A DNA stretch of 64,000 nucleotides from Streptomyces fradiae (GTDB taxonomy: Bacteria; Actinomycetota; Actinomycetes; Streptomycetales; Streptomycetaceae): positions 6,076,001 to 6,140,000 of the forward strand of contig NZ_CP065958.1 in the NCBI RefSeq assembly GCF_041270065.1, in the 5' to 3' direction. Positions within the stretch are counted from its first letter, which is position 1; every line of letters begins with the position of its first letter. This document shows, one piece after another, positions 2,639 to 61,689 of the stretch. Position numbers and translations under genes: made by a program. Below the pieces are notes generated by a model. The model was not told where the DNA came from, did not search any database, and was given only the letters and a program-made list of their open reading frames with translations.

Positions 2639-3544
2639 TCAGCCCCGCTCCTCGGCGAGGGTCTCGGCGACCACCTCCGCGAAGGCCTGTGCCTGCGGGG
2701 TCCCGGTCCGGCGGCGCAGGACCACGCCGAGGAGGGAGTCCGGGAGGCCCTCGACCGGGACGAAGGCGATGGATCCGCGGTGGCCGTGGTACTCGGCGGT
2801 CGAGCGGCAGAGCAGCATCGCGCCGCGGTCCGCGGCCGTCAGCGAGAGACCTTCCTGCAGGGTGTTGACCAGGGGGCCGGCCGGGATCGGCCGGCCCTCC
2901 GGCGTCTCGCGGGGAGCCTGGGCCAGGCGCCAGTACTCGGGGGCGGAGTCCTGGATGCCGATCAGCCGGCAGTCCGCGAGCTCCTCGGCCGACACCGCCG
3001 CGCGCCCCGCGAGGGGATGCCGGGCGGAGACCGCCAGGGTCTGCGGCTGCCGGGAGAACACCGGCCCGAGCAGCAGGTCCTCCTCCGCCACCGGCAGCAG
3101 GACCACCGCGCAGTCCACCTCCTTGCGGCGGACCGGCCCGAACGGATCGGACAGCGCGATCTCCGCCACCTCGATCGCGCACTGCGGATAGCGCTCCTCG
3201 AACCCGGTGATGGCCCGGGCCAGATAGTCGTCCACCGTGCCCTGGAAGCCGATCCGCAGCACCCCGTCGACGTTCCGGGCGGCCGCCCGGGCCTCGTCGA
3301 CGGAGCTCCGCAGCGCCTCGTACGCCGGACGCAGCGAGGACAGGAAGGATTCGCCCAGCGGCGTCAGGCCCACCCGGCGGCTCGTCCGCTCCACCAGCGG
3401 GGCGCCGATCCGGCTCTCCAGGGAGCGGAGCAGCTGGCTGACCCGGCTCTGGGACAGATAGAGCCGCTCGCCCGCCCGGCCGAAATGCAGCTCCTCGGCG
3501 AGCACGAGGAAGGCCTCCAGCTCGCGGATGTCCAGACTGCTCAT
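2639..3544 (-). CDS. LysR-family transcriptional regulator
   Basis: 301 residues. The N-terminal winged helix-turn-helix (residues about 4-62, with L-E-A-F-L-V-L-A-E-E-L-H-F-G-R-A and Q-S-R-V-S-Q) is followed by a periplasmic-binding-protein-like effector domain. The start ATG is preceded by GGGGAGA. It is divergent from the MFS gene at 3700, the classical LysR arrangement, and an inverted repeat lies between them. It also converges on the AAHS transporter with 19 bp between the stops. The ligand is unknown; the regulator most likely controls the divergent exporter and itself. Confidence 0.92.
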   Translation of the reverse strand: MSSLDIRELEAFLVLAEELHFGRAGERLYLSQSRVSQLLRSLESRIGAPLVERTSRRVGLTPLGESFLSSLRPAYEALRSSVDEARAAARNVDGVLRIGFQGTVDDYLARAITGFEERYPQCAIEVAEIALSDPFGPVRRKEVDCAVVLLPVAEEDLLLGPVFSRQPQTLAVSARHPLAGRAAVSAEELADCRLIGIQDSAPEYWRLAQAPRETPEGRPIPAGPLVNTLQEGLSLTAADRGAMLLCRSTAEYHGHRGSIAFVPVEGLPDSLLGVVLRRRTGTPQAQAFAEVVAETLAEERG

Positions 3545-3638
3545 GGTCTCCCCTTCTGCGCCGCGGTCCCTGACGTTGTCTACCCGGGCGGGCGGCCGGT
3601 CCGCCAGGCGGGCCGGGGGAATCGATCAAGTAGCCGGG

Positions 3639-3654
3639 CTCATCGAAGCATGAG
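3639..3654. promoter_or_regulatory. Candidate LysR operator between divergent genes
   Basis: CTCAT (3639-3643) and ATGAG (3650-3654) form an inverted repeat with a 6-bp spacer, ending 45 bp before the MFS ATG. It resembles the T-N11-A type of LysR box but is one base longer, so assignment to this regulator is tentative. Confidence 0.4.
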
Positions 3655-3699
3655 GGATTGGGCGTTGTTCCCGCAGGTCGCGGCGGGTTGGCTGAACTC

Positions 3700-4905
3700 A
3701 TGGCACAGACAGAGGAAATCGCAGGGGTGACCCCGGAGGCTCCGGAACCCCGGGGCGGCGGCTGGCCCGCCGTGATCGCCGTCGCCGGCGCGACGTTCAC
3801 CGTGGTCACGTCCGAGATGCTGCCGGTGGGGCTGCTCACGCCCATCGGCGAGGCGCTGAAGGTCACCGAGGGCACGGCAGGACTGACCCTGACCATCACG
3901 GGTCTGGTGGGCGCGGTGTCCGCGCCGCTGCTCACCCCGGCGCTCGGCCGCTTCGACCGGCGCCCGGTGCTGTGCGGTCTGATGGCGGTGCTGATCATCG
4001 GGAATCTGCTGGCAGCCTGGTCCCCGCACTTCGCCGTGATGGTCGCGGCCCGGGTCCTGGTCGGCATCGGCATGGGCGGAGTGTGGGCCATCGCCGCCGG
4101 TCTCGCGGTACGGCTCGTCCCGGGCAAGTCCGTCGGCCCGGCCACCTCGCTGGTCTTCAGCGGGATCGCCGTGGCCTCCGTGCTCGGCGTCCCGGCCGGC
4201 ACGTACATCGGCGAACTCGCCGACTGGCAGACGGCGTTCGTCACCGTCGCCGGTCTCGCGCTCGTGGTCCTCGTGGCCCTGGCGGTGCTGCTGCCGAAGC
4301 TGCCCGCCGAGCAGGAGATCCGGCTCGGCGGTGTGCTGCGGCTCGTCGGCAACCCGCGGGTGGCCACCGGCCTCGGCGTGGTGCTGCTCCTGGTCACCGG
4401 CCACTTCGCCGCCTACACCTATGTACGCCCCGCCCTCGAGGAGATCTCGGGAGCCAGCGCGTCCGTGATCGGCACGCTCCTGCTCGTGTACGGCGTCGCC
4501 GGCGTGCTCGGCAACTTCGCCTCGGGCGCTCTCGCCTCGCGCACTCCGCGCGGCGCGCTCCTGGCGATCAGCCTGGTGCTCGCCGCCACGGTCTGCCTGA
4601 TGCCGCTGATCGGCGGGTCGGTGGTCACGGCGACGGTGCTGCTCGCGGTCTGGGGCGTGTCGTACGGCGGGGTCTCGGTGTCCACCCAGACCTGGCTGCT
4701 CGCGGCGGCCCCCGAGGCCCGCGAGTCCGCGTCCGCCCTGTTCGTCGGCGTGTTCAACGGCTCGATCGCGCTGGGCGCGTTCGTCGGCGGCCTCGCGGCG
4801 GACGGCTCCGGCATCGAGGCCGTCATGTACCTGGGGGCGGCCCTCGCCGCCGGCGCCCTGGTGGTGACGGCCGTGGGCCGCGCACCGGCCGCCGGGCGCC
4901 TCTGA
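3700..4905 (+). CDS. MFS transporter (sugar or drug efflux type)
   Basis: 401 residues with about 12 hydrophobic helices. The N-terminal region reads V-T-S-E-M-L-P-V-G-L-L, the signature of the AraJ/YdhP/Bcr-like DHA1 group of exporters, and R-V-L-V-G-I-G-M-G-G-V-W-A-I matches the conserved helix 4 motif of that group. I chose the ATG at 3700 over the upstream TTG at 3658 because the family starts a few residues before the first helix. It is divergent from a LysR gene that probably regulates it. The substrate cannot be predicted. Confidence 0.88.
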   Translation: MAQTEEIAGVTPEAPEPRGGGWPAVIAVAGATFTVVTSEMLPVGLLTPIGEALKVTEGTAGLTLTITGLVGAVSAPLLTPALGRFDRRPVLCGLMAVLIIGNLLAAWSPHFAVMVAARVLVGIGMGGVWAIAAGLAVRLVPGKSVGPATSLVFSGIAVASVLGVPAGTYIGELADWQTAFVTVAGLALVVLVALAVLLPKLPAEQEIRLGGVLRLVGNPRVATGLGVVLLLVTGHFAAYTYVRPALEEISGASASVIGTLLLVYGVAGVLGNFASGALASRTPRGALLAISLVLAATVCLMPLIGGSVVTATVLLAVWGVSYGGVSVSTQTWLLAAAPEARESASALFVGVFNGSIALGAFVGGLAADGSGIEAVMYLGAALAAGALVVTAVGRAPAAGRL

Positions 4906-5013
4906 CCGGCGAGCGCCACTGACCGGCGGGACCGGTTCCATGAGCCGGCGGCGCTCCGGGGCATTCCCTCGTCCCCGGGGCGCCGCCAACCCGACCACCG
5001 CCGGCCGGAGGGG

Positions 5014-5814
5014 TCACACCCCGAGGCCGTCGACACGGTCGAGGAACTTCCGGATCAGCTCGGCCCATTCGGCCGGCCGCTCGGCGGCGATGGCGTGCCC
5101 GCAGTCCAGGACCGCCAGCTCGGCCCCCGGGATTCCGTTCGCGAGTTCACGGGAGTGAAGAGGTGTGATGAGGAGATCCCGGGCCGGGGAGACGACCAGG
5201 ACGGGCACCCGGATCGCGGCCAGATCGGGCCGCACGTCGATGTGGTCGAACAGCGCCAGCTGGGCGTCCGCGCCGGGCGGCATGCCCGCGGCGAAGAGCC
5301 CGAGCTGCTCCTCGATCTCCGCGCCGGAGCGCTCGTCCAGCCAGTCGGGCCCGCCGACCATCAGGGACAGATAGGCGGCCAGGTCCCGGCCGGCGGGATC
5401 GCTCCGGCCCAAGGACCGCCAGGTGTCGATCGCGAGCCGCAGGCGGGGATTGGGGAAGGCGAAGCCGGCGGAAAGCACGAGGGCGGTCACCCGTTCCGGA
5501 TGCCGCACCGCGGCCCGTACCGCCACCGTCGTACCCATCGAGAAACCGGAAATGGCGAAGGAGTGCACGCCGGATTGCACGGCGCTTTCCACGATTTCGT
5601 CGGCGAGTATGTCAAGACTCAATGCGCGATCCGCGAGAGGGGTGGAACCGGAGCCCGGAAAATCGGGACCGACCACGGTCCTGGATTCGGCGAGAGTGCC
5701 GATCACCGGACCGAAGCTGTCCCGCACATCGCTGCCGGCGCCGTGCGCGAGCAGCAGGCCAGGGCCGGTTCCCCACACGGAGCGGGCCAACGAGGAAGGA
5801 GGTGAAGGGGTCAT
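5014..5814 (-). CDS. Alpha/beta-fold hydrolase
   Basis: 266 residues. The fold signature is visible: L-L-A-H-G-A-G (oxyanion hole), the nucleophile elbow G-F-S-M-G near residue 95, a late Asp in S-P-A-R-D, and the His in D-C-G-H-A-I near the end. The start is the ATG at 5814; an upstream in-frame ATG at 5844 is less likely. The gene is divergent from the NRPS, and the two share a 230-bp control region with tandem palindromes, so it could be co-regulated with the cluster. Family members hydrolyse esters, lactones or amides. Substrate unknown. Confidence 0.85.
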   Translation of the reverse strand: MTPSPPSSLARSVWGTGPGLLLAHGAGSDVRDSFGPVIGTLAESRTVVGPDFPGSGSTPLADRALSLDILADEIVESAVQSGVHSFAISGFSMGTTVAVRAAVRHPERVTALVLSAGFAFPNPRLRLAIDTWRSLGRSDPAGRDLAAYLSLMVGGPDWLDERSGAEIEEQLGLFAAGMPPGADAQLALFDHIDVRPDLAAIRVPVLVVSPARDLLITPLHSRELANGIPGAELAVLDCGHAIAAERPAEWAELIRKFLDRVDGLGV

Positions 5815-5921
5815 GGCGGCGATGCTAGCGAATCGCCATGCCAATTCCCGGAATTATCCGTCGACTTCACGCCACTGTGACAGACCACGTGACGGACCCC
5901 GTGATAGTCCCTTGGCAGGCC

Positions 5922-5962
5922 ACTACCTGATCGAGTGGTCGGCGACTACTCGATCGAGTAGT
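5922..5962. promoter_or_regulatory. Tandem 18-bp palindromic operators upstream of the NRPS
   Basis: A perfect 18-bp palindrome, ACTACTCGATCGAGTAGT, occupies 5945-5962. A near copy with three changes, ACTACCTGATCGAGTGGT, occupies 5922-5939. The centres are 23 bp apart, about two helical turns. This is the layout of a TetR/GntR-type repressor site pair, placed between the divergent hydrolase and NRPS genes. No TetR or GntR gene is adjacent in the cluster, so the regulator may be encoded elsewhere. Confidence 0.65.
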
Positions 5963-6044
5963 GGTGGATCGGATCACGTGAAACGTAGGCTCACGAGCAT
6001 CGGGCAACGAAATCCCCTGAGCCTGAATTATCGAAGGAAGGCCG

Positions 6045-9000
6045 ATGCTCACTTCACGTCAGCTCCCGCTGTCCGCCTATCAGCGCGATATCTGGGCTGC
6101 CGAATCCGCCACCGCCGCCGACCCTCAGTTCAACGTCCTCCTCCACGAACGGCTGGACGGGGAGCTGGACACCGATGTCCTGTGCGCCTCCCTGGAGCAC
6201 GTCCTCCGGGCCAACGACGCCTTCTCGCTGCGCTTCGACGACACCGCCGGCGTCCCCTTCCAGTGGCTCGCGACCGAGGACACCGCCCCCTGGGTGGAGT
6301 ACGCCGACCACTCCGACGCGCCGGCCCCCGCCGCGGCCTGCGCCGCCCGCCGCCGGGACTCCTTCAACCGCCCCTTCGCGCTGCGCCGTTCGCGGATGTT
6401 CACGGCCGCCGTGCTGCGCGAGAGCGAGCGCGTGGTCCATCTCCTCCTGAACGTGCACCACTTGATCGCGGACGCCTGGGCGCTGAACCTCGTGCTGCGC
6501 CAGGTCCACGACGAGTACCTCCGCCGTACGACCGGCGCGGAGCCTGCCGGTGCCGGGACCCCCACCCCTTCTGTCGCGACGCTCCTCGACGCCGAGGCCG
6601 CCTACCGCGCCTCCGCCGCCCACGAGGAGGACCGCGCCCACCACCGTGAGGCCCTCGCCGGGGTCGCGCCCGCGCTCTTCACCCGTACCGTCGCCGCCGG
6701 CGAGGCGCCCGTGCTCCGCGGCCGGCACAGCGTCACCGTGGACGCCGCCCTGGTCCGCCGGATCCGCGCCCTCGGCAGCTCGCCCTTCGCCTTCGTCGCC
6801 GCCGCCTTCGCCGCCTACCTCGCCCGGGCGCACCGCGCCGACGAGGCCGTGCTCGGCGTGCCGTTCCTCAACCGCCCGTCCGAGGCCGAGAAGGCCGTCG
6901 TCGGCCAGGTCGCCAACAGCCTCCCGGTCCGTGTGGCCGTCGACGCCGGGGCGAGCCTGCCGGAGCTGGCCGCCCGGATCCGCACCGGCACCGACACCCT
7001 GCGCCGCCATGAGCGGCTCGCGCTCGGCGACGTGCTGCGCGAACTCCCGGCCACCGGCGCCGGATCCCGCCGCCTCTTCGACGTCACCCTGTCCTATCTG
7101 CGCTTCCCGCGCCCCGTGGCCCTGCCCGGCGTCACGGCCGAGACCACCGTCCAGGCACCCGTGCACGCCCAGGACGCGCTGTCCGTGATGATCCACGCCT
7201 TCGACGACGACGCCGACCTGCGGCTCGACCTCGACTACGCGCTCGACGTCTTCGACGAGGACCTGCCCATCACCGCCGTCGCCTACCAGCTGCTCACCCT
7301 GATCCGCGCCGGTGTCGAGCGGCCCGAACAGCCGGCCGTCACCCTGCCGCTGCTGAGCGAGGCCGGGTACGCCGACCTCGTCCACGACTCCCGGGGCCCG
7401 CGCGTCCCGTACGCCGACGACACCACCCTGCACGCGCTGATCGCCGCGCAGGCCGCCCGTACCCCGGACCGCACCGCCGTCACCAGCGCGGACGGCGCCC
7501 ACACCCTGACGTACGCCGAACTCGACGCCCGCTCCAACCAGGTGGCCCGCGGGCTGCGCGCGCACGGCGTCGACACCGGCGACCGGGTCGCCGTCCTGAT
7601 GGAGCGCTCGCCCCGGCTGCTCGTCGCACTGCTCGGCGTCCTGAAGGCGGGCGGCGCCTACGTGCCCGTCGACCCCGGCTACCCGGCCGAGCGGATCGGG
7701 CTGCTCCTGGAGGACAGCCGGGCCGCCGCCGTCCTCGTCGACCCCGACCCCGATTCCGACCCCGATTCCGGCACCACCCTGCACGGGGCGGCGGCCGGCA
7801 AGCCGCCGCTGACCGTGGCGGAACTGCTCACCGGACCCGACGGACCGCTCCCGCCGCACGCCGGCCCGCGCGACCTCGCGTACGTCATCTACACCTCCGG
7901 CTCCACCGGGCGGCCCAAGGGCGTCATGGTCGAGCACCACTCGGTCGTCAACCGGCTGGCCTGGATGCAGCGGGCCTATCCGGTCGGCGCGGACGACGTG
8001 CTGCTCCAGAAGACGCCGATCTCCTTCGACGTCTCCGTCTGGGAGCTGTTCTGGTGGGCGATCGAGGGCGCGGGCCTGGCCCTGCTGCCGGTCGGCGGCC
8101 AGCGCGACCCGCGGCAGATCCTCGCGACCATCGAGGACCGCGGAGTGACCGTGCTGCACTTCGTGCCCTCGATGCTCGGCCCCTTCCTCGACCTCCTGGA
8201 GGTCTCGCCGGAGCTCCGCGCCCGGGCCGGCTCGCTGCGCACGGTGTTCTGCAGCGGGGAGGCCCTGCCGGCGGCGCGCGTCGAGCAGTTCAACCGGGTG
8301 TTCGGCGCGGGTACCGCTACCGATGCCGGTCCCGGCGCCCCGCGCCTGGTCAACCTGTACGGGCCCACCGAGGCGACGGTCGACGTGTCGTACCACGACT
8401 GCCCGTCCGCGCCGGACGAGCCGGTCCGCCGGGTGCCCATCGGCCTGCCCATCGACAACACCGTCCTGTACGTGGTCGACGCGCACGGCGGCCTCCAGCC
8501 CCCCGGCCTGCCCGGCGAGCTGTGCATCGGCGGCGTCGGGGTGGCCCGCGGCTACCTCGACCGGCCGGAGCTCACGGCCGAGAAGTTCACCGAGGACCCC
8601 TTCCCCGCACGTCACACCACGGGGGAGGAGCCCTTCACCCCGGAGCGCCGGATCTACCACACCGGCGACCTCGCCCGCCGGCTCGCCGACGGCGGCATCG
8701 AGTACCTGGGCCGGATCGACGGCCAGGTCAAGATCCGCGGCAACCGCGTCGAACTGGGCGAGGTGCAGAACCGTCTCGCCTCCCTCCCCGGGATCCGCGA
8801 CGCCCTCGTCGTCGACCGCGACACGGCGGCCCGCGGCACCGTGCTCGTCGCCTACCACGTCGCCGACGAGGCCCTCGACCCGTCCTGGCTGCGCGCCGAA
8901 CTCGCCGCCCAGTTACCCGAGTTCATGATCCCGTCGTACTTCGTGCCGATCGACCGAATACCCCTCACGCCCAACGGCAAGGCCGACCGCCGCGCCCTGC

Positions 9001-12000
9001 CCGCCCCGGTCACCGGCTCCGCTTCCGAAGGCCACGGGAACGCAGGTGGTGCCGCCGAGCCGCCCCGGAACGCCACCGAGGAGACGCTGCTCCGCATCTG
9101 GTCCGAGGTCCTGGAGACCCCGCCCGGCCGGATCGGCGTCCACGACGACTACTACGCCCTCGGCGGCGACTCCATCACCCTGCTCCGCATCCAGGCGCAG
9201 GCCGAGAAGGCCGGCATCCGCTTCTCGCCGACCGACCTCATGAACCACCCCACCGTGGCCCAGCTGGCCGCCCGCGCGACCACCGGCGCCCCCGCCGCGC
9301 CCCGCGCCGAACTCGCGCCCTTCGCGCTCGTCTCCCAGGTGGACCGGGCCCGCCTCGAAGGCCGCGCCGACGCCCATCCGCTCACCCGCCTCCAGCTCGG
9401 GCTGCTCTACCACAGCCGGGCCGAGGAGCGTTCGGCCGTCTACCACGACGTCTTCCAGTACAGCCTGGTCCTCGACTGGGACGAGGACCGCTTCCGGGAG
9501 GCCTTCGACCGACTCGTCGCCCGCCACCCGGTGCTGCGCTCCTCCTTCGACCTCGGCGCCTTCTCCGAGCCGCTGCAGATCGTGGACCATGAAGTCGACG
9601 GCGGCCTGGAGGTCTCGGACCTGCGCGGCCGCCCCGAGTCCGAGGCCCGGGCGGAGATCGCCGCCCATGTCGAGGAACGCCGCTTCCACCGTTACGTGTT
9701 CGAGCGCGCCCCGCTCTACCTCTTCCGGGCGCACGTCCTGGACGACACGGTCGAGCTGGTGCTCAGCTTCCACCACGCGATCCTCGACGGCGGCAGCGTC
9801 GCCACCCTCCTGCGCGAACTCCTCCAGGACTATCTGCACCGCCTCGGCCACCCCATCGCGGCCGTCCCCGATACCGCCCTGCCCTCCGGCGCCCACCATG
9901 TGCTCGCCGAGCGCCGGGCCCTGGAGTCGGCGGACACCCGGCGCTTCTGGCAGGAGCGCCTTGCCGACGCCCCGCTGCCGCAGCTGGAGGCCTTCCGCCC
10001 GCACGAGACCCCGCGCGACGCCGAGCAGCTCACCCGGCTCGTCGACCTGCCCAGGGAACTCACCGACCAGGCACGGGACTTCGGTGCCGAGCGGGGTCTG
10101 CCGCTGAAGTCGGTGCTGTTCGCGGCGCACTGCCTCACCCTGCGCCTCTACTCCGGCCAGCCCGATGTCACCACCGGTCTGGTCACCCACGGCCGCCCCG
10201 AGATCGAGGACGCCGACCGCACCGCCGGCCTCTTCCTCAACACCATGCCCGTACGCCTCGACACCGGGGCCGCCGCCGACTGGGCGGGCGTGGTCCGCGC
10301 GGCCTTCGAGCAGGAGCGGCTCAGCCACGAGCACCGCCGCTACCCGCTCAGCGCCATCCAGGAGGACCGCGGCGCGACCGTCCTGGAGACCGCCTTCAAC
10401 TACATCCACTTCCGGCAGCTCGCCGCCGTCCTCGAACTGCCCGGCGTGCGCATGCTCGACTTCCGGACCTGGGAGGAGACCAACTTCCAGCTGCTCGTCA
10501 ACGCCATGACCGACCCGGTCGAGGGGACCGTGCGGCTGCGCATGGACTTCCACGGCCAGACCTTCACCCCGGCCCAGGCGGAGCTGTACGCCGACACGTT
10601 CACGGCCGTGCTCGACCGCGTCGTGCGGCACCCCGACGAGCCCGCGGACCTGGGCTTCCTGAGCCCGGAGCCGTACGAGACCGAGGGCGCCGCCCAGGCA
10701 GCCGACGCCCCCGAAGCCGGCGCCCCCTTCCAGGACGTGGCCCGCACCGTCGCCGAGCGGACCCGGCTGACCCCGGACGCGGTCGCGCTCGTCCAGGGGC
10801 CGCGCCGCTGGACGTACGCCGAACTCGGCGCCGCCGCCGACCGGGTGGCTGCCCGGCTGCTCGCCCTCGGCGCCCGGCCCGGCGACCGGGTGGGCATCGC
10901 CCTGCCCCGCTCGCCGGAGACCGTCGCCGTCATCCTGGGCGTCATGCGCGCCGGGGCCACGACCGTGCCCCTCGACGTCAGCTACCCGGTCGAACGCCTG
11001 ACCTCGATGGTGAGCCAGGCCCGGCCCTTCCGGATCGTCGCCGGAGCCGAACACGTCGGCGCGCTCGGCGAACTGGCCCCGGTGCTCTCCGCCGAGGAGC
11101 TGTTCACCGAGACCGACGCCGAGGTCGAGGCCACGGCCACGGCCACGGCCGACCCCGCCATCGCGCCCGCCGACATCGCGTACATCCTCTTCACCTCCGG
11201 CTCCACCGGCGCCCCCAAGGGCGTCGCCATGCCGCACCGCTCGCTCGCGAACCTCGTGGCCTGGCAGAACTCCGTGCCGAGCGGTGTCGTCGGCGGCACC
11301 ACCGCCCAGTACGCGCCCCTCAGCTTCGACGTCTCCTTCCAGGAGATCTTCTCGACGCTCTGCGGCGGCGGAACCCTCCACCTCCTCTCCGAGGACGAGC
11401 GCCGGGACATGCCCGCGCTGCTCCGCCTCCTCGACCGCGAGGGCGTCGAGCGCCTGTACCTCCCGTACGTCGCGCTCCAGCAGCTCGCCGAGGCCGCCGC
11501 CGCGCTCGACCTGGCGCCGCGCGGTCTGAAGGCCCTGCTCTCCTCCGGCGAACAGCTGCGCGTCACCGACGAGATCCGGCGCCTGTGCGCGGCACTGCCC
11601 GGGGTGATCCTGGAGAACCAGTACGGGCCCACCGAGTCCCATGTGATCACCGCGTACACCATGCAGGGCGACCCGGCCCGCTTCCCGGCCCTTCCGCCCA
11701 TCGGCCGCCCCGTCGACCGGTCCCGGGTGCACGTCCTGGACGGGCGGGGGCGTCCGGTGCCGGCCGGCGTCAAGGGCGAGCTGTATCTGGCCGGCGACTG
11801 CCTCGCCGAGGGGTACGTGGGCCGGGCCGACCTGACCGCCGAGCGGTTCACCGTCCACCCCGTCACCGGCGAACGCCTCTACCGCAGCGGCGACCTGGGC
11901 ATGCGGCTGCCCGGCGGCGACATCGTGTGCCTGGGCCGGGCCGACTCCCAGGTCAAGGTGCGCGGCTACCGGGTGGAGCCGGCCGAGGTCGAGCTGGCCG

Positions 12001-13367
12001 TCGGCCGCTTCGCCGCCGGACACCCCGGCATCCAGGAGGTCGCCGTCGTCGCCCGCCGGCGCGAGGGCAACGACTCCTTCCTGGCCGCCTTCCTGACCGG
12101 CGACCGCGACGGCGCCGACCTGGTCCTGCTGCGCAAGCAGCTGCGTACCGTACTGCCCGACTACATGACGCCCTCGCACTTCGAGTGGCTGCCCGCCCTC
12201 CCGCTCACCCCGAGCGGCAAACGGGACGACGCCGCGCTGCGCCGGACGCCGCTGACCGCCGACACGGCGGCCGACGAGGCCGAGCCGCTCGACGCGTACG
12301 AGCGGACGCTGACCGCGATGCTCGCCGACCTCCTCCAGCTGCCGGCGGTGGGCCCGCACCAGAACATCTTCGACCTCGGCGGCACCTCGCTCACCGCGAT
12401 GCGCCTGGTCGTGCAGATCGAGCAGCGGTACGGCACCAGCATCCCGCTCTCGGACTTCGTCGCGGCGCCCACGGCGGCGGCCCTCGCGGCCCGGCTGCGC
12501 TCCGGCGAGGCCAGGACCGCCTTCGACCCGCTGGTGCCCATCCGCACCGACGGCGACCGGCGCCCGATGTTCTTCGTGCACCCCATGGGCGGCAACGTGC
12601 TCTGCTACGTGCGCTTCGCCAAGCACCTCCCGGACGACCAGCCCTTCTACGCGCTCCAGGCGGCCGGCGCCGACCCGGGCACCGAGGCGCTGCGCAGCGT
12701 GGAGGAGATCGCCGCCGGCTATGTCGAGGCGATCCGCCGGGTGCAGCCCAGCGGCCCGTACGTGATCGGCGGCTGGTCCTTCGGCGGCTTCGTCGCCTTC
12801 GAGATGGCCCGCCAACTGCGCGCGGCGGGGGAGAAGATCGCCCGTCTGGTGCTGCTCGACACCACCGCGCTCAACCCCGGGCGGCGGCTGAACACCGGCG
12901 ACGAGGCGCTGCTCGGCTGGTTCTTCTGGGAGCTGCTCTGGCTGCGCCGCGGCGGGGACTCCCCGCTGGAGCTGATCCCGGCCGAACTGGGCACGCTGGA
13001 GGAGAAGTTCGACTTCATCGCCCAGCTGGCCATCGACGAGGGCGTGCTGCCGGCCGGCAGCACCGGGGCGGTCGTCCGGCGCCTGTTCCAGGTGTACGAG
13101 GCGAACTGGAAGGCGGCCTTCGCCTACCGCCCCGAGGTGGTGGACCAGGACATGGTCCTCATCCACGCCTCGGAGCCGCTGCCGGAGGTCCTCAACTCGA
13201 TGCACACCGCCATCGAGAGCATGCACAAGGACCCCACGAACGGCTGGCGCGAGCGCACCAGCGGCGTCCTCGACGTGGTCGACGTCCCCGGCGACCACCT
13301 CACGATCATGGAGGAACCGCACGTCGGCCACATGGTCAGGACCGTCGTCGAGCTGATCGGCGAGTGA
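6045..13367 (+). CDS. Dimodular nonribosomal peptide synthetase C-A(Ser)-T-C-A(Pro-like)-T-TE
   Basis: A 2440-residue enzyme with seven domains. C1 occupies residues 1-430, with H-H-L-I-A-D-A at 138-144; the final Gly of HHxxxDG is Ala, as can occur in acyl-accepting starter C domains. A1 is about 455-960, with T-S-G-S-T-G near 616. T1 carries Ser1043 in G-G-D-S. C2 has H-H-A-I-L-D-G at 1243. A2 is about 1540-2040, T2 carries Ser2115 in G-G-T-S, and TE carries Ser2245 in G-W-S-F-G with a late G-D-H. By alignment to GrsA the specificity residues of A1 are DVWHFSLVDK, the known serine code. Those of A2 are DVQYLSQVIK, closest to proline codes (DVQxIAHVVK). The ATG has a strong AAGGAAGG site. 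Inference: it builds an N-acyl-Ser-Pro thioester released by TE, feeding the coupled monooxygenase. Confidence 0.95.
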   Translation: MLTSRQLPLSAYQRDIWAAESATAADPQFNVLLHERLDGELDTDVLCASLEHVLRANDAFSLRFDDTAGVPFQWLATEDTAPWVEYADHSDAPAPAAACAARRRDSFNRPFALRRSRMFTAAVLRESERVVHLLLNVHHLIADAWALNLVLRQVHDEYLRRTTGAEPAGAGTPTPSVATLLDAEAAYRASAAHEEDRAHHREALAGVAPALFTRTVAAGEAPVLRGRHSVTVDAALVRRIRALGSSPFAFVAAAFAAYLARAHRADEAVLGVPFLNRPSEAEKAVVGQVANSLPVRVAVDAGASLPELAARIRTGTDTLRRHERLALGDVLRELPATGAGSRRLFDVTLSYLRFPRPVALPGVTAETTVQAPVHAQDALSVMIHAFDDDADLRLDLDYALDVFDEDLPITAVAYQLLTLIRAGVERPEQPAVTLPLLSEAGYADLVHDSRGPRVPYADDTTLHALIAAQAARTPDRTAVTSADGAHTLTYAELDARSNQVARGLRAHGVDTGDRVAVLMERSPRLLVALLGVLKAGGAYVPVDPGYPAERIGLLLEDSRAAAVLVDPDPDSDPDSGTTLHGAAAGKPPLTVAELLTGPDGPLPPHAGPRDLAYVIYTSGSTGRPKGVMVEHHSVVNRLAWMQRAYPVGADDVLLQKTPISFDVSVWELFWWAIEGAGLALLPVGGQRDPRQILATIEDRGVTVLHFVPSMLGPFLDLLEVSPELRARAGSLRTVFCSGEALPAARVEQFNRVFGAGTATDAGPGAPRLVNLYGPTEATVDVSYHDCPSAPDEPVRRVPIGLPIDNTVLYVVDAHGGLQPPGLPGELCIGGVGVARGYLDRPELTAEKFTEDPFPARHTTGEEPFTPERRIYHTGDLARRLADGGIEYLGRIDGQVKIRGNRVELGEVQNRLASLPGIRDALVVDRDTAARGTVLVAYHVADEALDPSWLRAELAAQLPEFMIPSYFVPIDRIPLTPNGKADRRALPAPVTGSASEGHGNAGGAAEPPRNATEETLLRIWSEVLETPPGRIGVHDDYYALGGDSITLLRIQAQAEKAGIRFSPTDLMNHPTVAQLAARATTGAPAAPRAELAPFALVSQVDRARLEGRADAHPLTRLQLGLLYHSRAEERSAVYHDVFQYSLVLDWDEDRFREAFDRLVARHPVLRSSFDLGAFSEPLQIVDHEVDGGLEVSDLRGRPESEARAEIAAHVEERRFHRYVFERAPLYLFRAHVLDDTVELVLSFHHAILDGGSVATLLRELLQDYLHRLGHPIAAVPDTALPSGAHHVLAERRALESADTRRFWQERLADAPLPQLEAFRPHETPRDAEQLTRLVDLPRELTDQARDFGAERGLPLKSVLFAAHCLTLRLYSGQPDVTTGLVTHGRPEIEDADRTAGLFLNTMPVRLDTGAAADWAGVVRAAFEQERLSHEHRRYPLSAIQEDRGATVLETAFNYIHFRQLAAVLELPGVRMLDFRTWEETNFQLLVNAMTDPVEGTVRLRMDFHGQTFTPAQAELYADTFTAVLDRVVRHPDEPADLGFLSPEPYETEGAAQAADAPEAGAPFQDVARTVAERTRLTPDAVALVQGPRRWTYAELGAAADRVAARLLALGARPGDRVGIALPRSPETVAVILGVMRAGATTVPLDVSYPVERLTSMVSQARPFRIVAGAEHVGALGELAPVLSAEELFTETDAEVEATATATADPAIAPADIAYILFTSGSTGAPKGVAMPHRSLANLVAWQNSVPSGVVGGTTAQYAPLSFDVSFQEIFSTLCGGGTLHLLSEDERRDMPALLRLLDREGVERLYLPYVALQQLAEAAAALDLAPRGLKALLSSGEQLRVTDEIRRLCAALPGVILENQYGPTESHVITAYTMQGDPARFPALPPIGRPVDRSRVHVLDGRGRPVPAGVKGELYLAGDCLAEGYVGRADLTAERFTVHPVTGERLYRSGDLGMRLPGGDIVCLGRADSQVKVRGYRVEPAEVELAVGRFAAGHPGIQEVAVVARRREGNDSFLAAFLTGDRDGADLVLLRKQLRTVLPDYMTPSHFEWLPALPLTPSGKRDDAALRRTPLTADTAADEAEPLDAYERTLTAMLADLLQLPAVGPHQNIFDLGGTSLTAMRLVVQIEQRYGTSIPLSDFVAAPTAAALAARLRSGEARTAFDPLVPIRTDGDRRPMFFVHPMGGNVLCYVRFAKHLPDDQPFYALQAAGADPGTEALRSVEEIAAGYVEAIRRVQPSGPYVIGGWSFGGFVAFEMARQLRAAGEKIARLVLLDTTALNPGRRLNTGDEALLGWFFWELLWLRRGGDSPLELIPAELGTLEEKFDFIAQLAIDEGVLPAGSTGAVVRRLFQVYEANWKAAFAYRPEVVDQDMVLIHASEPLPEVLNSMHTAIESMHKDPTNGWRERTSGVLDVVDVPGDHLTIMEEPHVGHMVRTVVELIGE

Positions 13368-13368
13368 C

Positions 13369-14619
13369 ATGACCACCCCTCACACCACCCATCGAATGAG
13401 TACAGAGAAAGAGACGGACGGCACCATGGGGCGAAGCGGCAGCGGCACGCCACGGAAGGCGATCGTCCTCGGCGCGGGCATCGGCGGTCTCACCGCCGCC
13501 GTCGCCCTGCGCGAGGCGGGCCTGGACGTCGAGGTGTACGAGCGGGCCGGCGAGCTGCGCGCCGCCGGTTCCGGTCTCTCGGTGATGAGCAACGCCGTCG
13601 GCGCCCTGGACTCCCTCGGCGTGGGCATCGACCTGGAGAAGCGGGGCACGGCCCTGGAGTCGTACCACGTCAGGACCGCGCGGGGCCGGCTGATCCGGGA
13701 GTTCCCCTTCCCGGAGATCATCGGGCGGCTCGGCGTGCCCAGCGTGCTGATCACCCGCCCCGACCTCCAGGCCGCCCTGCTCGAAGCGGCCGACGGCATT
13801 CCGCTCACCCTCGGTGCCACCGCCACCGGCTACGAGACCGGGGAGGACCCCGCCGACGGGGTGCGGGTGCGCTTCGAGGACGGGCGCGAGGCCCACGCCG
13901 ACGTGCTGATCGGCGCCGACGGCTTCCACTCCGTGGTCCGCAGGCAGCTGGTCGGCCCGGAGGACTCCCAGGACAGCGGGTACCTCTGCTGGCTGGCCGT
14001 GGTGCCGTTCGCGCACCCGAGGTTCGCCCCGGGCTCGGTCACCCACTACTGGGGCAGCGGCCGGCGCTTCGGCATGGTCGACATGGGTGGCGGCCGGCTC
14101 TACTGGTGGGGCACGAAGAACATGCCCGCCGAGCGCTCCGCGCACTGGCGGGGCGGCAAGGACGAGATCCTCGCCACCTACGCCGGCTGGGCGGACGAGG
14201 TCCAGGAGGCCGTCCGGGTCACCCCCGAGGCGGACATCATCGCGGTGCCCTCCCGGGACCGGGCCTTCCTGGAGCGCTGGGGCCGGGGTCCGGTCACGCT
14301 GCTCGGCGACGCCGCCCACCCGATGCTCACCAGCCTGGGCCAGGGCTCCGGCATGGCCATCGAGGACGCCGTCGTGCTCGGCCGGGCCCTCAAGGGCGCC
14401 ACCGACCTCCCGCGCGCCCTGCGCCGCTACGAGGACGAGCGCCGGGAGCGCACCCGCGGCATGGTGGCCGCCTCCCGCGGCATCAGCACCTTCGAGCAGT
14501 CGGAGGACCCGGTGCGCCGGCCCGTCCGGGACGCCTACTTCCGGTTCATGCCGGCCCGCAGGCTGGTCCGCACCCTGGAGGAGTCCCTCACCTTCCCCCT
14601 GCACCCCGCAGCGGTGTGA
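13369..14619 (+). CDS. FAD-dependent monooxygenase of the NRPS operon (class A; PxaB/LgnC-like by context)
   Basis: 416 residues. A Rossmann FAD motif G-A-G-I-G-G lies at about residues 34-39, the D-G motif (I-G-A-D-G-F-H-S) near 180 and the G-D-A-A-H-P-M motif near 310, which together define group A flavoprotein monooxygenases. The ATG starts one base after the NRPS stop, so translation is coupled; alternative ATGs lie at 13396 and 13426. In characterised bacterial pyrrolizidine pathways a monooxygenase of this type, encoded beside the Ser/Thr-Pro NRPS, performs a Baeyer-Villiger oxidation that triggers ring contraction of the indolizidine intermediate. I infer the same role here from architecture; no similarity search was run. 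Confidence 0.85.
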   Translation: MTTPHTTHRMSTEKETDGTMGRSGSGTPRKAIVLGAGIGGLTAAVALREAGLDVEVYERAGELRAAGSGLSVMSNAVGALDSLGVGIDLEKRGTALESYHVRTARGRLIREFPFPEIIGRLGVPSVLITRPDLQAALLEAADGIPLTLGATATGYETGEDPADGVRVRFEDGREAHADVLIGADGFHSVVRRQLVGPEDSQDSGYLCWLAVVPFAHPRFAPGSVTHYWGSGRRFGMVDMGGGRLYWWGTKNMPAERSAHWRGGKDEILATYAGWADEVQEAVRVTPEADIIAVPSRDRAFLERWGRGPVTLLGDAAHPMLTSLGQGSGMAIEDAVVLGRALKGATDLPRALRRYEDERRERTRGMVAASRGISTFEQSEDPVRRPVRDAYFRFMPARRLVRTLEESLTFPLHPAAV

Positions 14620-14652
14620 CCGCCGCCGGACGACCGTAGGAAAGGAAAGATC

Positions 14653-15531
14653 ATGTCAGGCACATTCGGCGCCCTCACCCCGCACGGCAGGTCCGTGCTC
14701 GTCACCGGGGCCTCCTCCGGCCTGGGCCGGGTCTGCGCGCTCGTCCTGGAGCGCGCCGGCTTCCGGGTGTTCGCGGGCGTGCGCCAGGAGGCCGACGGCG
14801 AGGCGCTCGCCCAGGACGCCGCGTACGGCAGGATCACCCCGGTCCGTATCGACGTGACCGAGGAGAAGAGCATCGCCGCGGCGGCCGAGCGGGTCGCCGG
14901 GGCCGTCGGCGACGGCGGTCTGTGGGGACTGGTCAACAACGCGGGCATCTGCGTCTCGGCGCCGCTCGAATGCGTCGCGCCCGAACAGCTCCGCCGCCAG
15001 CTGGACATCAACGTGGTCGGCCAGCTCGCCGTCACCCAGGCGTTCCTGCCCCAGCTGCGACGCGCCCGGGGCCGGGTGGTCAACGTGACCTCGGGGCTCG
15101 GCAGCGTGGCCATCCCGTATCTGGGGGCCTATGCCTCGGCCCAGTTCGCCAAGGAGGCCCTCACCGATGTGCTGCGGCGCGAACTGCGGCCGCACGGCGT
15201 GGACGTGAGCGTGGTCCAGCCCGGGGCGATCATGACCCCGATCTGGGGGAAGGTCACCGAGACCGCCCGGGCCGCCATGGACGGCGTCCCCGAGCCGGTC
15301 GCCGAGCTCTACCGCATCCCGTTCCACCGCTTCCTGCACGCCAACGAGCGCCAGGCCAGGGACAGCAGGACCCGCCCCGAGGACTTCGCGCGCACCGTCG
15401 GACAGGCGCTCACCGCCCGGCGGCCCCGGTCCCGCTACCGGGTCGGCGCGGACGCCCGCACGGTGAGCGTGCTCGCCCGGGCCCTGCCCGACGCGGCCCT
15501 CGACCGCTATCTGCGCCCGATCACGCAGTAG
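14653..15531 (+). CDS. Short-chain dehydrogenase/reductase-fold protein with altered catalytic lysine
   Basis: 292 residues. Nucleotide binding T-G-A-S-S-G-L-G lies at about 19-26, the N-N-A-G motif near 96 and the catalytic Ser in V-N-V-T-S-G-L near 155. The Tyr position reads Y-A-S-A-Q instead of Y-x-x-x-K: the codon at the Lys position is CAG, with an AAG three residues later. The ATG follows GGAAAGG. It is the third gene of the NRPS operon, 33 bp after the monooxygenase, and a hairpin follows it. It may reduce or dehydrogenate the product core, or it may have lost classical catalysis. The altered active site makes the activity uncertain. Confidence 0.85.
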   Translation: MSGTFGALTPHGRSVLVTGASSGLGRVCALVLERAGFRVFAGVRQEADGEALAQDAAYGRITPVRIDVTEEKSIAAAAERVAGAVGDGGLWGLVNNAGICVSAPLECVAPEQLRRQLDINVVGQLAVTQAFLPQLRRARGRVVNVTSGLGSVAIPYLGAYASAQFAKEALTDVLRRELRPHGVDVSVVQPGAIMTPIWGKVTETARAAMDGVPEPVAELYRIPFHRFLHANERQARDSRTRPEDFARTVGQALTARRPRSRYRVGADARTVSVLARALPDAALDRYLRPITQ

Positions 15532-15546
15532 GGCCGCGGAATTCGG

Positions 15547-15575
15547 TTCGGCCCGGGCCCGCAGCCCGGGCCGAA
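15547..15575 (+). terminator. Hairpin terminator after the NRPS-FMO-SDR operon
   Basis: A 12-bp perfect stem, TTCGGCCCGGGC (15547-15558) with GCCCGGGCCGAA (15564-15575) and a 5-base loop, lies 16 bp after the SDR stop. There is no T run, which is common in Streptomyces. It suggests that the following PaaN-like gene is transcribed separately. Confidence 0.7.
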
Positions 15576-15881
15576 AGGCCCGTAGGAAACCGGCCAGCCG
15601 ACGGGCCCGCCCGACCGCCCTCCCAGAGGGATCACGCCATGATCGTGACCGGAACCCCATGTCCCGGACATGTCACGGCAGTTCCGCTTTCGTCCCCCGG
15701 GAAGGCCGGGCGGGCCGCCAAGGGCCCGCACGACCACGCGCGTTCACGGGCTCCGGCACCCTCGCCCCGCCCCCCGGCGCGCGGCCGGCCCGCGGTGCCC
15801 GGCGCGGCGGGCGTGAACGATACGTCAAGTCGGCGCACTGACCGAGTTTGCTGTGGAACCGGTGATCCCCGTACGACAAGG
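15576..15881. other. Gene-free stretch before the PaaN-like gene
   Basis: About 300 bases of GC-rich DNA with no convincing coding frame. It probably carries the promoter of the downstream gene pair; a possible weak -10-like segment (GATACG) lies near 15819. No palindrome like the one in front of the NRPS was seen here. Confidence 0.5.
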
Positions 15882-15890
15882 ATGAAGATC

Positions 15891-17633
15891 ATGGCCCGCA
15901 CCCTTCCGCACCCTTCCCCCACCGCGGCCGCCGCCCCGGCGCGCCTGATCGCCCGGCACCGGACCACCCTGGACCGGGCCCTGACCGCCGTCCGCACCCG
16001 TGAGCACTGGTCGCCCTACCCCGAGGACACCCGGGTCTACGGACCCGGCGGCGCCGCCGACGGCGAGGCCTCCTTACGCGCCCTGCTGGGGCGGCCGTTC
16101 GAGCTCGGCCAGCCCGGCCGCGACGGCACGGTCGGCCCGGCGCCCGAGCGGGGCGGCGAGCGCTCCCCGTACGGTTTCGACCTCGGCATCTCCTACGCCC
16201 ACCACGACCCCGCCGTCCTGCTGCCCGCCCTGGCGGCCGCCCTTCCGGCCTGGCGGGACGCCGGGCCCGAGGTCCGGGCCGCCGTCTGCCTGGAGATCCT
16301 GGACCGGATCAACGCCCGCAGCCCCGAATTCGCGGCCGCCGCCGAGCACACCAGCGGCCACAACCCCGTCATGGCCTTACACGCCGGCGCCGTCCACGCC
16401 CAGGACCGCGGCCTGGAGGCCGTCGCCTACGCCTACGCCGAGCAGACCCGGCTGCCCGCGAGCGCGCACTGGCGCAAGCCGCAGGGCCCGGGCCGCACCG
16501 TCGACATCCACAAGCGGTTCACGGCCGTGCCCCGCGGGATCTCCCTGGTCGTCGGCAACAGCGTCTTCCCCGCCTGGAACGGCTACCCCGGCCTCTTCGC
16601 CTCGCTCGCCACCGGCAACCCCGTCCTGGTCAAACCGCACCCCGCCGCCGTCCTCCCGCTCGCGCTCACCGTCCGCCTCGCCCGGGAGGTGCTCGCCGAG
16701 GCCGGCTTCGACCCGAACCTGGTGTGTCTGGCCCCCGAGCACCCCGGCGAAGGGCTCGCCCGGCGCCTCGCGACCGCCCCCGAGGTGCGCCTGGTGGACT
16801 ACTCGGGCCGGACCGCCTTCGCCGACTGGCTCCACGAACACGCCCGCCAGGCCCGGGTCTTCACCGCCCTCTCGGCCGTGAACTCGCTGCTCGTCGAGTC
16901 CACCGGCGACTACCGAGACATGCTCGCCAACCTCGCCTTCTCCGTCTCCCTCTACAGCGGCCAGCTCTGCACCAGCCCGCAGAACCTGCTGATCCCGCGC
17001 GGCGGCATCGCCACCGACGAGGGGCACAAGGCGTACGAGGAGGTGGTCGCCGACCTCGGCACCGCCCTGGACGCCCTGCTCGGCGACGACGGCGCGGCCT
17101 GCGAGGTCCTGGGCGCGCTGCTCGGCCCCGAGGTCCTGGCCCGGGTGGACCTGGCGATGTCCGGTGCCCTGGGCCCGGTCGGCGTGCCGTCGCGGGCGGT
17201 CCGGCATCCCGCGTACCCGGACGCCGTCGTGCGTACCCCCGTCGTCGTCACGCTCGACGCCGCCCGGGACGCGGACCGCGCGACCCTGCTCGCCGAACGG
17301 CTCGGACCGGTCTGTCTCGCGGTGGCCGTGGACTCCGCGGCGGCGGGCGTCGAACTCGTCGCGGAGACCACGAAGACCTGCGGCGCGCTCTCCGTCGGCC
17401 TGTACTCCGTCTCCGAGGAGGTGACGGAGGCGATGACGGCCGCCTGCGCCGAGGCCGGCGTGATGCTCTCCACCAATCTGATGGGGGACTGGTACATCTC
17501 GCAGTCCGCCGTCTACTCCGATCTGCACGGCACCGGCATGAACCCCGCGGGCAACGCCGTGTACAGCGACGGCGCCTTCGTGGCGGAACGTTTCCGGACG
17601 GTGGTCGTACGCCGCTACGGCGGTGCCACATGA
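15891..17633 (+). CDS. PaaN-like aldehyde dehydrogenase family protein
   Basis: 580 residues. The C-terminal two thirds match the aldehyde dehydrogenase fold: N-P-V-L-V-K-P-H-P (cofactor lysine region), and S-G-Q-L-C-T-S-P-Q-N with the catalytic Cys near residue 360. The N-terminal extension and the V-F-P-A-W-N-G-Y-P segment resemble the PaaN family of phenylacetate catabolism proteins. I chose the ATG at 15891, 9 bases after AAGG; an ATG at 15882 is possible. Its stop overlaps the next start by 4 bases (ATGA). Family members oxidise CoA-linked or free aldehydes. Here it may supply or tailor an acyl group, but no other paa gene is present, so the role is open. Confidence 0.8.
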   Translation: MARTLPHPSPTAAAAPARLIARHRTTLDRALTAVRTREHWSPYPEDTRVYGPGGAADGEASLRALLGRPFELGQPGRDGTVGPAPERGGERSPYGFDLGISYAHHDPAVLLPALAAALPAWRDAGPEVRAAVCLEILDRINARSPEFAAAAEHTSGHNPVMALHAGAVHAQDRGLEAVAYAYAEQTRLPASAHWRKPQGPGRTVDIHKRFTAVPRGISLVVGNSVFPAWNGYPGLFASLATGNPVLVKPHPAAVLPLALTVRLAREVLAEAGFDPNLVCLAPEHPGEGLARRLATAPEVRLVDYSGRTAFADWLHEHARQARVFTALSAVNSLLVESTGDYRDMLANLAFSVSLYSGQLCTSPQNLLIPRGGIATDEGHKAYEEVVADLGTALDALLGDDGAACEVLGALLGPEVLARVDLAMSGALGPVGVPSRAVRHPAYPDAVVRTPVVVTLDAARDADRATLLAERLGPVCLAVAVDSAAAGVELVAETTKTCGALSVGLYSVSEEVTEAMTAACAEAGVMLSTNLMGDWYISQSAVYSDLHGTGMNPAGNAVYSDGAFVAERFRTVVVRRYGGAT

Positions 17634-18823
17634 ACACCGTCCTGGCCCCGGAGGCGCCGCTGCGCGGCCGGGAACGCGAACTGGCGCTCATCCGCGAGGT
17701 GCTTGAGCACGGCAGCCGCGGCGGCACCGCCGTACTCACCCTCGAGGGAATGCCGGGCATCGGCAAGACCCGGCTGCTCAGCGAGGCGGCCGCCCTCGCC
17801 CGGCAGCTCGGCTACCAGCCCCCGCGCCGCCCGCACGGCCGGGAGGCGCGCCACCACCGCCTGTCCGCCGCCCGCACCGCCGCCCGGCCCGCCGGACCCC
17901 ATCTGGTGATCCTCGACGACCCCTGCGGGACCCCCGACCGCCCCGCACACCGGGCCCGCGTCCCCGCACCCCGCGGCCGCCCCGGCCCGGGCCGCGGCGT
18001 GCTGCTCATCGCCCACCGGCCCGGCGAGACCGCCGCGCTGCCCGGATCCCTGCTCGCCGACCCGGCCGTCCGCACCGAACGCCTCGTCCTCGGACCGCTG
18101 GCCCCCGCCGACACCCACCGGCTCGCCCACGACCTGCTCGGCGCGCCGCCCGCCCGCTCCCTCACGCCGCTCGTCGACGACACCGGAGGCCACCCCCGGC
18201 TGCTCATCGAGCTGCTCACCGGCCTCCGCGAGGAGGACGGCGTCGAGCTGACCGGCGGCGAGGCCGAACTCCTCACCGAGCGCCTGCCGGCCCGCCTCTC
18301 CGCCCGCGTACGGGCCACCCTGGAGCGCTACTCGCCGTCCTGCCGCCAACTGCTCCGCGTGGCCGCGGTCCTGGGCGACGAGGTCGTGTACGCCGAACTG
18401 GCCCTGATGCTGCGCACCTCCGTCTCCGCCCTGCTGCCCACCCTGGAGGAGGTCCGCGCCACCGGAGTGGTCCGCGACACCGGCACCCGCGCCGCCTTCC
18501 ACAGCGCCCTGCTGCGCCGGCTCGTCGCGGAGTCCGTACCGGCCCCCGTACGGCTCGCCCTGGAGCAGGAGGCCGCGACGCTCCGCCCCGCCCGCCGGGG
18601 CCAGCGCCAGAGCCCGCAGGCACCGGCGGCCCGGCACGGCGAACCCAGCGGACAGCAGCGCGCCCTGGTGGCCCTGGTCGCCGAGGGCCTGACCAACCAG
18701 CAGATCGCCAGCCGGCTCGCCCTGTCGCCGCACACCGTCAACTACCACCTCCGCAAGCTGTTCAAGCACTACGGAGTGAGCTCGCGCATCGACCTGCTGC
18801 GGGCCGCCGCCCGCGCCCACTAG
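17630..18823 (+). CDS. AAA-ATPase/LuxR-type transcriptional regulator (short LAL type)
   Basis: 397 residues. The Walker A motif G-M-P-G-I-G-K-T-R lies near residue 45 and Walker B L-V-I-L-D-D-P near 92. The C-terminal LuxR helix-turn-helix (about residues 345-393) reads L-V-A-E-G-L-T-N-Q-Q-I-A and S-P-H-T-V-N-Y-H-L-R-K-L-F. At under 400 residues it is less than half the size of classical LAL activators and lacks the TPR-rich middle. The segment between the Walker motifs is Arg/Pro/His-rich and looks degenerate. The start ATG overlaps the stop of the PaaN-like gene. It is the likely pathway-specific activator of the locus. Confidence 0.85.
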   Translation: MNTVLAPEAPLRGRERELALIREVLEHGSRGGTAVLTLEGMPGIGKTRLLSEAAALARQLGYQPPRRPHGREARHHRLSAARTAARPAGPHLVILDDPCGTPDRPAHRARVPAPRGRPGPGRGVLLIAHRPGETAALPGSLLADPAVRTERLVLGPLAPADTHRLAHDLLGAPPARSLTPLVDDTGGHPRLLIELLTGLREEDGVELTGGEAELLTERLPARLSARVRATLERYSPSCRQLLRVAAVLGDEVVYAELALMLRTSVSALLPTLEEVRATGVVRDTGTRAAFHSALLRRLVAESVPAPVRLALEQEAATLRPARRGQRQSPQAPAARHGEPSGQQRALVALVAEGLTNQQIASRLALSPHTVNYHLRKLFKHYGVSSRIDLLRAAARAH

Positions 18824-18884
18824 GGCCGCCGTCCCTCGCCCGCCTGCACACCGCCCACCTGCCCCGACCGGAGGTCCCCACCCC

Positions 18885-57869: not shown

Positions 57870-57879
57870 GTGTCGGCAA

Positions 57880-59369: not shown

Positions 59370-59508
59370 GCCGTCCCGAGACCACCTGCTCCCACACGGC
59401 AGTGCGCCGACCGCGGAGCCCGTACCGGAATAGGAACCGCCGTGGCCTACCGGACTTCCCCCGCACTGTCGCCCGCCGTAGAGACGCCCAGCGGCACGGC
59501 CGACACAC

Positions 59509-61507: not shown

Positions 61508-61689
61508 GGGCGTCGGCGCCACCGGGCCGGCTTCTTCAGCCACTTGGCGGGGGTCCACCCGTCGATCGCCGGATGGCCGACGGAGCGTCCGAGGTTCCAG
61601 GCTGGCGGCATGACCCGCCGTACACGAGCGGGCCGACGCCGCCCCACCGCTGACCATGTGCGGGGCAGACCACACGGGAAAGGAATCTT

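Follow-up and report, generated by a model that had tools for sequence, protein, structure and literature searches.

What does a two-module nonribosomal peptide synthetase (NRPS) make when a flavin monooxygenase gene follows it almost without a gap, and what is added by the short-chain dehydrogenase/reductase (SDR) gene that comes next? The question is raised by a 64,000-nucleotide stretch of Streptomyces fradiae DNA (NZ_CP065958.1, positions 6,076,001 to 6,140,000; hereafter the window), part of a 7.88 Mb genome in a single contig. An earlier note had proposed a new pyrrolizidine-type alkaloid locus at window positions 6045 to 14619. We find that the NRPS and its Baeyer-Villiger-type monooxygenase (BVMO) very probably form a core pathway of the pyrrolizixenamide/legonmycin type, with reaction steps inferred from characterised relatives. 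The proposed pathway type is thus upheld at the level of sequence, and the proposed novelty has to be moved: the core is a further member of a known, widespread family and does not by itself fix the scaffold, and the SDR is the new part. Such clusters are widely distributed (PMC7820566). The loci and genomes compared carry L and G numbers. The core features are as follows.

6045..13367, + strand: dimodular NRPS, C-A(Ser)-T-C-A(Pro)-T-TE by Pfam, codes and motifs, 2440 aa, 42% identical to PxaA (L026)
9369..10646, + strand: predicted second condensation domain, C2 (residues 1109-1534; Pfam), with HHAILDGG as in PxaA
10782..12224, + strand: second adenylation domain, A2, code DVQYLSQVIK (proline, by likeness to DVQYISQVIK of PxaA A2; 53% identity to that domain)
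12564..13346, + strand: thioesterase domain (Pfam), 54% identical to that of PxaA, triad motifs intact
13369..14619, + strand: FAD monooxygenase of the LgnC/PxaB family (Baeyer-Villiger type), with H226 at 14044-14046, Y245 at 14101-14103 and W247 at 14107-14109
14653..15531, + strand: SDR with YxxxQxxK, with Tyr160 at 15130-15132, Gln164 at 15142-15144 and Lys167 at 15151-15153

The NRPS and monooxygenase core

The core genes run in one direction. The NRPS stop occupies 13365-13367 and the monooxygenase ATG lies at 13369, one base on, as the earlier note had it (13396 and 13426 are other possible starts); the SDR starts 33 bases past the monooxygenase stop. The order condensation (C), adenylation (A), thiolation (T), C-A-T and thioesterase (TE) within one protein, also read before, is right, since Pfam finds two Condensation, two AMP-binding and two PP-binding domains and one C-terminal Thioesterase in the 2440-residue open reading frame (ORF). 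The T1 and T2 serines, the HHxxxDG of C2 and the GxSxG, Asp and His motifs of the TE are intact, and the C1 motif reads HHxxxDA. A legonmycin-type split NRPS was considered and set aside because Pfam places these domains in a single protein.

The substrate codes point to the pyrrolizixenamide enzyme PxaA of Xenorhabdus stockiae DSM 17904 (L026), the source strain of the cloned pxaA and pxaB (PMC11794875, PMC11177316). PxaA aligns along the NRPS over 2457 positions (42% identity), with domain identities of 25% in C1, 51% in A1, 41% in C2, 53% in A2 and 54% in the TE. Over ten positions, the serine code of A1, DVWHFSLVDK, came out the same on rereading and is identical in PxaA and in 25 of the 27 NRPS rows compared; the A2 code, previously called proline-like, is one residue away from that of PxaA (one row, L017, has an unreadable A2). 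As far as sequence can tell, this does not bear out the counter-case named in the earlier note, an A2 for a residue other than proline. PxaA assembles acylated Ser and Pro, and its A2 can also accept azetidine-2-carboxylate (AZE) (PMC11794875). Judging by the code, the A2 substrate is probably Pro, with AZE or a substituted proline as the alternative. An AZE/ClpP-type cluster was rejected as first choice, given the PxaA-like A2 code and the absence of clpP nearby. Four other NRPSs (L010, L011, L012 and L013) carry the A2 code DVQHCSHAAK (DVQHCSHAGK in L013) and, from this, probably load a different proline-like residue; the neighbours in their clade include an SDR, a flavin reductase, an acyl-CoA dehydrogenase, a PapA-type gene and an amidase.

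The monooxygenase, a FAD_binding_3 protein by Pfam, is 46% identical to PxaB, and among all genes of this genome it is the best match to PxaB (E 2e-107; next 1.3e-34). Its closest named relatives are Streptomyces proteins. It has the YWWxTKN and GDAAH motifs as well as the residues on which LgnC depends: in LgnC, H200A and W221A abolish activity and Y219F costs 95% of it (PMC11457151), and these three positions correspond, with identical spacing, to H226, Y245 and W247. Where a locus has an NRPS match longer than 1500 aa the trio is always present (60 of 60); where it has none, the trio occurs in 2 of 56, and both exceptions (L130, L141) do have a gene of the NRPS family. We also scanned GTDB species genomes and took the best 80 loci among the matches listed. 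An NRPS homologue is present in all 26 named loci whose monooxygenase is at least 43% identical, and the 54 loci at 39% or less have at most a partial adenylation-domain match, in L072 alone. In a quick maximum-likelihood tree (Shimodaira-Hasegawa-like approximate likelihood ratio test, SH-aLRT, for support; some long branches; L036 dropped out), the enzyme falls in a 61-row family clade with PxaB (SH-aLRT 99), nearest to L119-L121 (SH-aLRT 99). The possibility, left open before, that it groups with an unrelated subfamily is answered by this clade and by the LgnC-essential residues.

It is scarcely credible, in the light of these results, that the two genes are neighbours by chance and that the monooxygenase is no more than a standard aromatic hydroxylase. 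FAD_binding_3 proteins are common, and at E≤0.001 the genome has 15 more matches to PxaB, but co-occurrence, signature residues and clade membership all speak against coincidence. We take chance pairing as refuted at the sequence level by the NRPS co-occurrence, the PxaB best match and the H/Y/W trio. Identity with the urate hydroxylase HpxO was also rejected: the NCBIfam score of 237.4 bits is far below the cut-off of 500 and reflects a common fold. In Streptomyces coffeae (L029:9998-12514), an 838-aa ORF joins FAD_binding_3 (residues 2-340) to a PapA/condensation-like acyltransferase (417-719), an apparent natural fusion of monooxygenase and acyltransferase; several further genomes have frames of 828-908 aa at the place of the monooxygenase, which may be the same fusion.

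A third gene: an SDR that reads YxxxQxxK

The SDR is a recurrent partner of this core and not a peculiarity of the strain. The Streptomyces set comprised 392 genomes, the window's own included, and the monooxygenase is present in 36 of them (at least 52% identity, nearly full length; 46 at E≤1e-60), a count that does not include a partial match over residues 155-308 in G048. The SDR subfamily (E≤1e-65) is present in 25 genomes, every one of them among these 36, and in 0 of the 356 others. The two genes lie within about 3.3 kb of each other in 22 of the 25, 10.6 kb apart in one and on different contigs in two; the other 11 monooxygenase genomes are without the SDR. In a class-level control set of 394 genomes, an SDR of at least 52% identity occurs in three, all with the monooxygenase and all with YxxxQxxK, two of them from other genera. 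There the SDR adjoins the monooxygenase in G582 and lies about 13 kb off in G730, and G492 has the monooxygenase and no SDR. On the monooxygenase tree the SDR requires at least 9 gains or losses versus a mean of 20.5 for shuffled labels, and is therefore clustered on the tree yet comes and goes.

Both Pfam and a structural model (mean predicted local distance difference test, pLDDT, 92.5; predicted template modelling score, pTM, 0.91) assign the SDR fold, and Asn95, Ser147, Tyr160 and the TGxxxGxG cofactor motif are kept. The classical YxxxK is replaced by YxxxQxxK, with Gln instead of Lys at residue 164. This Gln is found in 121 of 121 sequences, namely the window SDR and the best 120 of 2831 homologues (one of which is the window protein again). 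At related loci, the fourth position after the Tyr (Y+4) is Gln in 29 of 30 rows and Met in one, and Y+7 is Lys in all 30 (28 distinct loci; L017 and L030, at 32% and 36%, were excluded as unrelated SDRs). As a control, 25 other SDRs of the same genome (30 of 58 PF00106 matches fetched, 4 of 30 loci not extracted) have Lys at Y+4 in 25 of 25, Lys at Y+7 in none and the Tyr in 23. Nine more distant SDRs from the class set (42-48%, genomes without the monooxygenase) likewise all have Lys at Y+4, although two of them, L191 and L193, have another residue in place of the Tyr; nine others were not read.

Alignments to the solved structures of 17beta-HSD1 and DHRS9 run ungapped from the Tyr to the Lys through the motif and place Lys where this SDR has Gln (identity to solved relatives about 28-31%). 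With clavulanic acid dehydrogenase, these two are the nearest solved relatives by sequence or predicted fold and the top structural matches of the model; the best NCBIfam matches are not FabG. An Arg following the second strand in SDRs points to NADP(H), and the invariant Arg44 at that place suggests NADP(H) as the likely cofactor here. SimC7 is said to be an earlier example of an SDR whose active site is altered. Among the papers listed by searches of an open-access library, none describes this motif change or an SDR in these pathways in its title or the opening of its abstract, a result that does not prove absence.

An association of the SDR with acyltransferase genes of the PapA type was not borne out. 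Raw Fisher tests gave p 0.018 for 60 distinct loci and 0.0017 for 61 rows, the latter with L140, L142 and L146 scored as SDR-bearing, since in these genomes the SDR lies upstream or on a different contig; allowing for relatedness, there were 5 independent pairs and a median p of 0.5. No PapA-type gene is present among the window genes scanned.

Proposed pathway and the role of the SDR

By analogy with characterised relatives, C1 would acylate Ser on T1, and C2 would dehydrate it to dehydroalanine and join it to Pro on T2; the C2 of LgnD is a precedent for such a dehydration (PMC8748450). Release by ring closure at the TE would yield an N-acyl indolizidinone ([5+6]), into which the LgnC-type monooxygenase would insert oxygen to give a [5+7] oxazepine carbamate. 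This carbamate would either persist or collapse, through hydrolysis and decarboxylation, to a [5+5] pyrrolizidine. With NADPH, the SDR would act on the ketone of the bicyclic core.

The core genes alone do not separate a pyrrolizidine from a [5+7] carbamate or a brabantamide-type product (PMC11177316, PMC7820566). It is quite conceivable, if somewhat short of probable, that the same core ends in a stable [5+7] bicyclic carbamate of the legoncarbamate, clipibicyclene or metaze B type, or in a brabantamide-type carbamate. BraC and PxaB share the [5+7] intermediate, whose fate is set by enzyme and side chain (PMC11177316), such compounds are known from Streptomyces (PMC7820566), and the intermediate could be captured by an added enzyme acting on the core. 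Two points, neither of them decisive, speak against this: the A2 code fits the pyrrolizixenamide enzyme, and the four ClpP genes of the genome all lie over 3 Mb away, unlike in the ClpP-targeting azetidine clusters (PMC13386464).

Returning to the pyrrolizixenamide/legonmycin-type pathway, we tentatively propose that the SDR may reduce the core ketone. It probably acts on the core, because it resembles hydroxysteroid dehydrogenases, usually abuts the monooxygenase and recurs with varied A2 codes and neighbours. The missing catalytic Lys keeps a redox-silent role alive, in which the SDR would be a binding, isomerising or ring-opening or ring-contracting helper for the [5+7] intermediate. We regard this as doubtful. 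The near-uniform exchange of Lys164 for Gln, in all 121 homologues and 29 of the 30 related rows, fits such a role, and the PxaB-type ring contraction is described as non-enzymatic (PMC11177316), which leaves room for a helper; yet Ser147, Tyr160, Asn95 and TGxxxGxG are retained, and the Lys at Y+7, invariant in the 30 rows, could substitute. We consider it unlikely that the SDR and the nearby PaaN-type dehydrogenase work instead on the acyl chain. The SDR azeE of the azetidomonamide cluster is accompanied by fabH2 and an acyl carrier protein (PMC9040856), and PaaN-type genes are found only alongside the SDR in the loci examined. However, the cluster genes run through Pfam include no recognised gene for FabH or a carrier protein, and neither the likeness to hydroxysteroid dehydrogenases rather than FabG nor the variety of neighbours favours a role in acyl-chain chemistry.

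Several points weigh against the proposed pathway with its added SDR. The SDR is not needed for the core, because it is absent from the pxaA-pxaB locus, from 11 of the 36 Streptomyces genomes, from G492 and from the 21 kb locus of L009, which has a 73% identical monooxygenase. It may be redox-inactive, going by the loss of the Lys that working SDRs use. The A2 code is no proof of Pro, because PxaA A2 also takes AZE (PMC11794875), and the acyl donor may differ much from that of PxaA because the C1 domains are just 25% identical.

Most described bacterial pyrrolizidine and lipocarbamate pathways make do with an NRPS and a Baeyer-Villiger enzyme, and the steering of the unstable [5+7] intermediate has been an unsettled point (PMC11177316, PMC11457151). 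A broader idea, possible and no firmer than that, is that the SDR represents a pathway-dedicated subfamily with its catalytic Lys shifted by one helical turn (Y+4 to Y+7) or lost, that it carries out an unreported core step deciding the final scaffold, and that the NRPS-BVMO-SDR trio of Streptomyces, other Actinomycetota and one Pseudomonas would form a separate branch of pyrrolizidine/carbamate biosynthesis in bacteria. With its changed active site, the SDR is in any case a candidate, open to test, for another step on the core, and its confinement to monooxygenase genomes in the Streptomyces set makes it a marker for finding such clusters.

Cluster extent and comparison with known systems

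The interval 6045 to 14619 does hold the NRPS and the monooxygenase, but conserved neighbours stretch the cluster to about 2639-20324. Extent was judged from homologues of at least 40% identity around the core in 62 related loci (L131 and L132, duplicates of L012, are still counted among these and among the 30 SDR rows). The outer features are:

2639..3544, - strand: LysR-type regulator, probable cluster edge (Pfam HTH_1 and LysR_substrate; homologue in 6 of 62 loci: L119-L122, L124, L127)
3658..4905, + strand: MFS transporter, start uncertain (Pfam MFS_1; homologue in 7 of 62)
5014..5844, - strand: alpha/beta hydrolase, divergent to the NRPS (Pfam Abhydrolase_1; homologue in 5 of 62: L119-L123)
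5922..5962, no strand: two tandem palindromic elements in the divergent promoter region, a possible operator (imperfect copy 5922-5939, perfect 18-base copy 5945-5962)
15882..17633, + strand: PaaN-type aldehyde dehydrogenase (TIGR02288, 752.6 bits, cut-off 578.75)
17630..18823, + strand: regulator with C-terminal LuxR helix-turn-helix (Pfam GerE) and a weak AAA match
18885..20324, + strand: DAO-type FAD oxidoreductase, probable other cluster edge (Pfam DAO; homologue in 5 loci: L119-L123)

The listed start of the hydrolase is a TTG, but an in-frame ATG at 5814 is equally likely. The PaaN-type dehydrogenase has homologues in 8 of the 62 loci (9 by gene-family grouping, each with the SDR) and the LuxR-type regulator in 13 (14 by grouping, again each with the SDR). 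The order NRPS-BVMO-SDR-PaaN-LuxR-DAO is retained in L119, the PaaN-type gene is inverted relative to the core in L123 and L125, and the order in Pseudomonas sp. UFMG81 (L028) is likewise NRPS-BVMO-SDR-aldehyde dehydrogenase. In Longimycelium tulufanense (L033:7855-11092), a PapA-type gene and the SDR sit between the NRPS and the monooxygenase; the set therefore stays together though its order changes. A near-identical palindromic element also lies 5' of the NRPS in L119; searching 15 further loci with the same pattern found none. Little can be read from the palindrome by itself, because the window has five perfect palindromes of at least 16 bases.

Elsewhere in the window, a called ORF at 58773-59369 resembles a ketosynthase fragment; it lies in a stretch sparse in called genes, 57869-61690, which may be a second biosynthetic locus in partial decay. 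The same genome has more large NRPS frames, of 2252 and 2447 aa, some 40-50 kb past the downstream end of the window (G000:C1:6179875-6191976).

Among described systems, the aze, clipibicyclene and metaze clusters, compared by description, also pair a dimodular NRPS with a FAD monooxygenase, and aze has the SDR gene azeE/PA3330, likewise compared by description (PMC9040856). They differ in that AZE replaces Pro and that aze and metaze contain clpP, which is not found near the window. No methyltransferase-type Pfam match occurs among the cluster genes scanned, a scan that included no search aimed at an AzeJ-type AZE synthase. Clusters for ClpP inhibitors are themselves widespread (Culp et al. 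2022, as cited in PMC11794875). The bohemamine/legoncarbamate cluster lga of Streptomyces sp. CT37, as described, encodes one C-A-T-C-A-T-TE protein for Ser and a Pro-like residue and an LgnC-like monooxygenase (PMC7820566); its further genes are for methylation and acyl-CoA, whereas an SDR and a PaaN-type dehydrogenase stand here.

The earlier note had likened the locus to pyrrolizixenamide and legonmycin alike, and the first comparison holds better than the second. The pxaA-pxaB locus likewise has C-A-T-C-A-T-TE with the monooxygenase directly downstream, its codes are nearly the same and its monooxygenase is of the same clade; it differs in having no SDR match within 21 kb. Legonmycin lgnA-D of Streptomyces sp. 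MA37, taken from its published description, shares H200/Y219/W221, YWWxTKN and GDAAH with the monooxygenase here (PMC11457151, PMC7820566), but loads Thr on a split NRPS (LgnB, A-T; LgnD, C-T-C-A-T-TE) with a transfer thioesterase (PMC11457151, PMC8748450), whereas the window has one NRPS with a Ser code. Because legonmycin uses a split NRPS and Thr, pyrrolizixenamide is the nearer analogue of the S. fradiae core.

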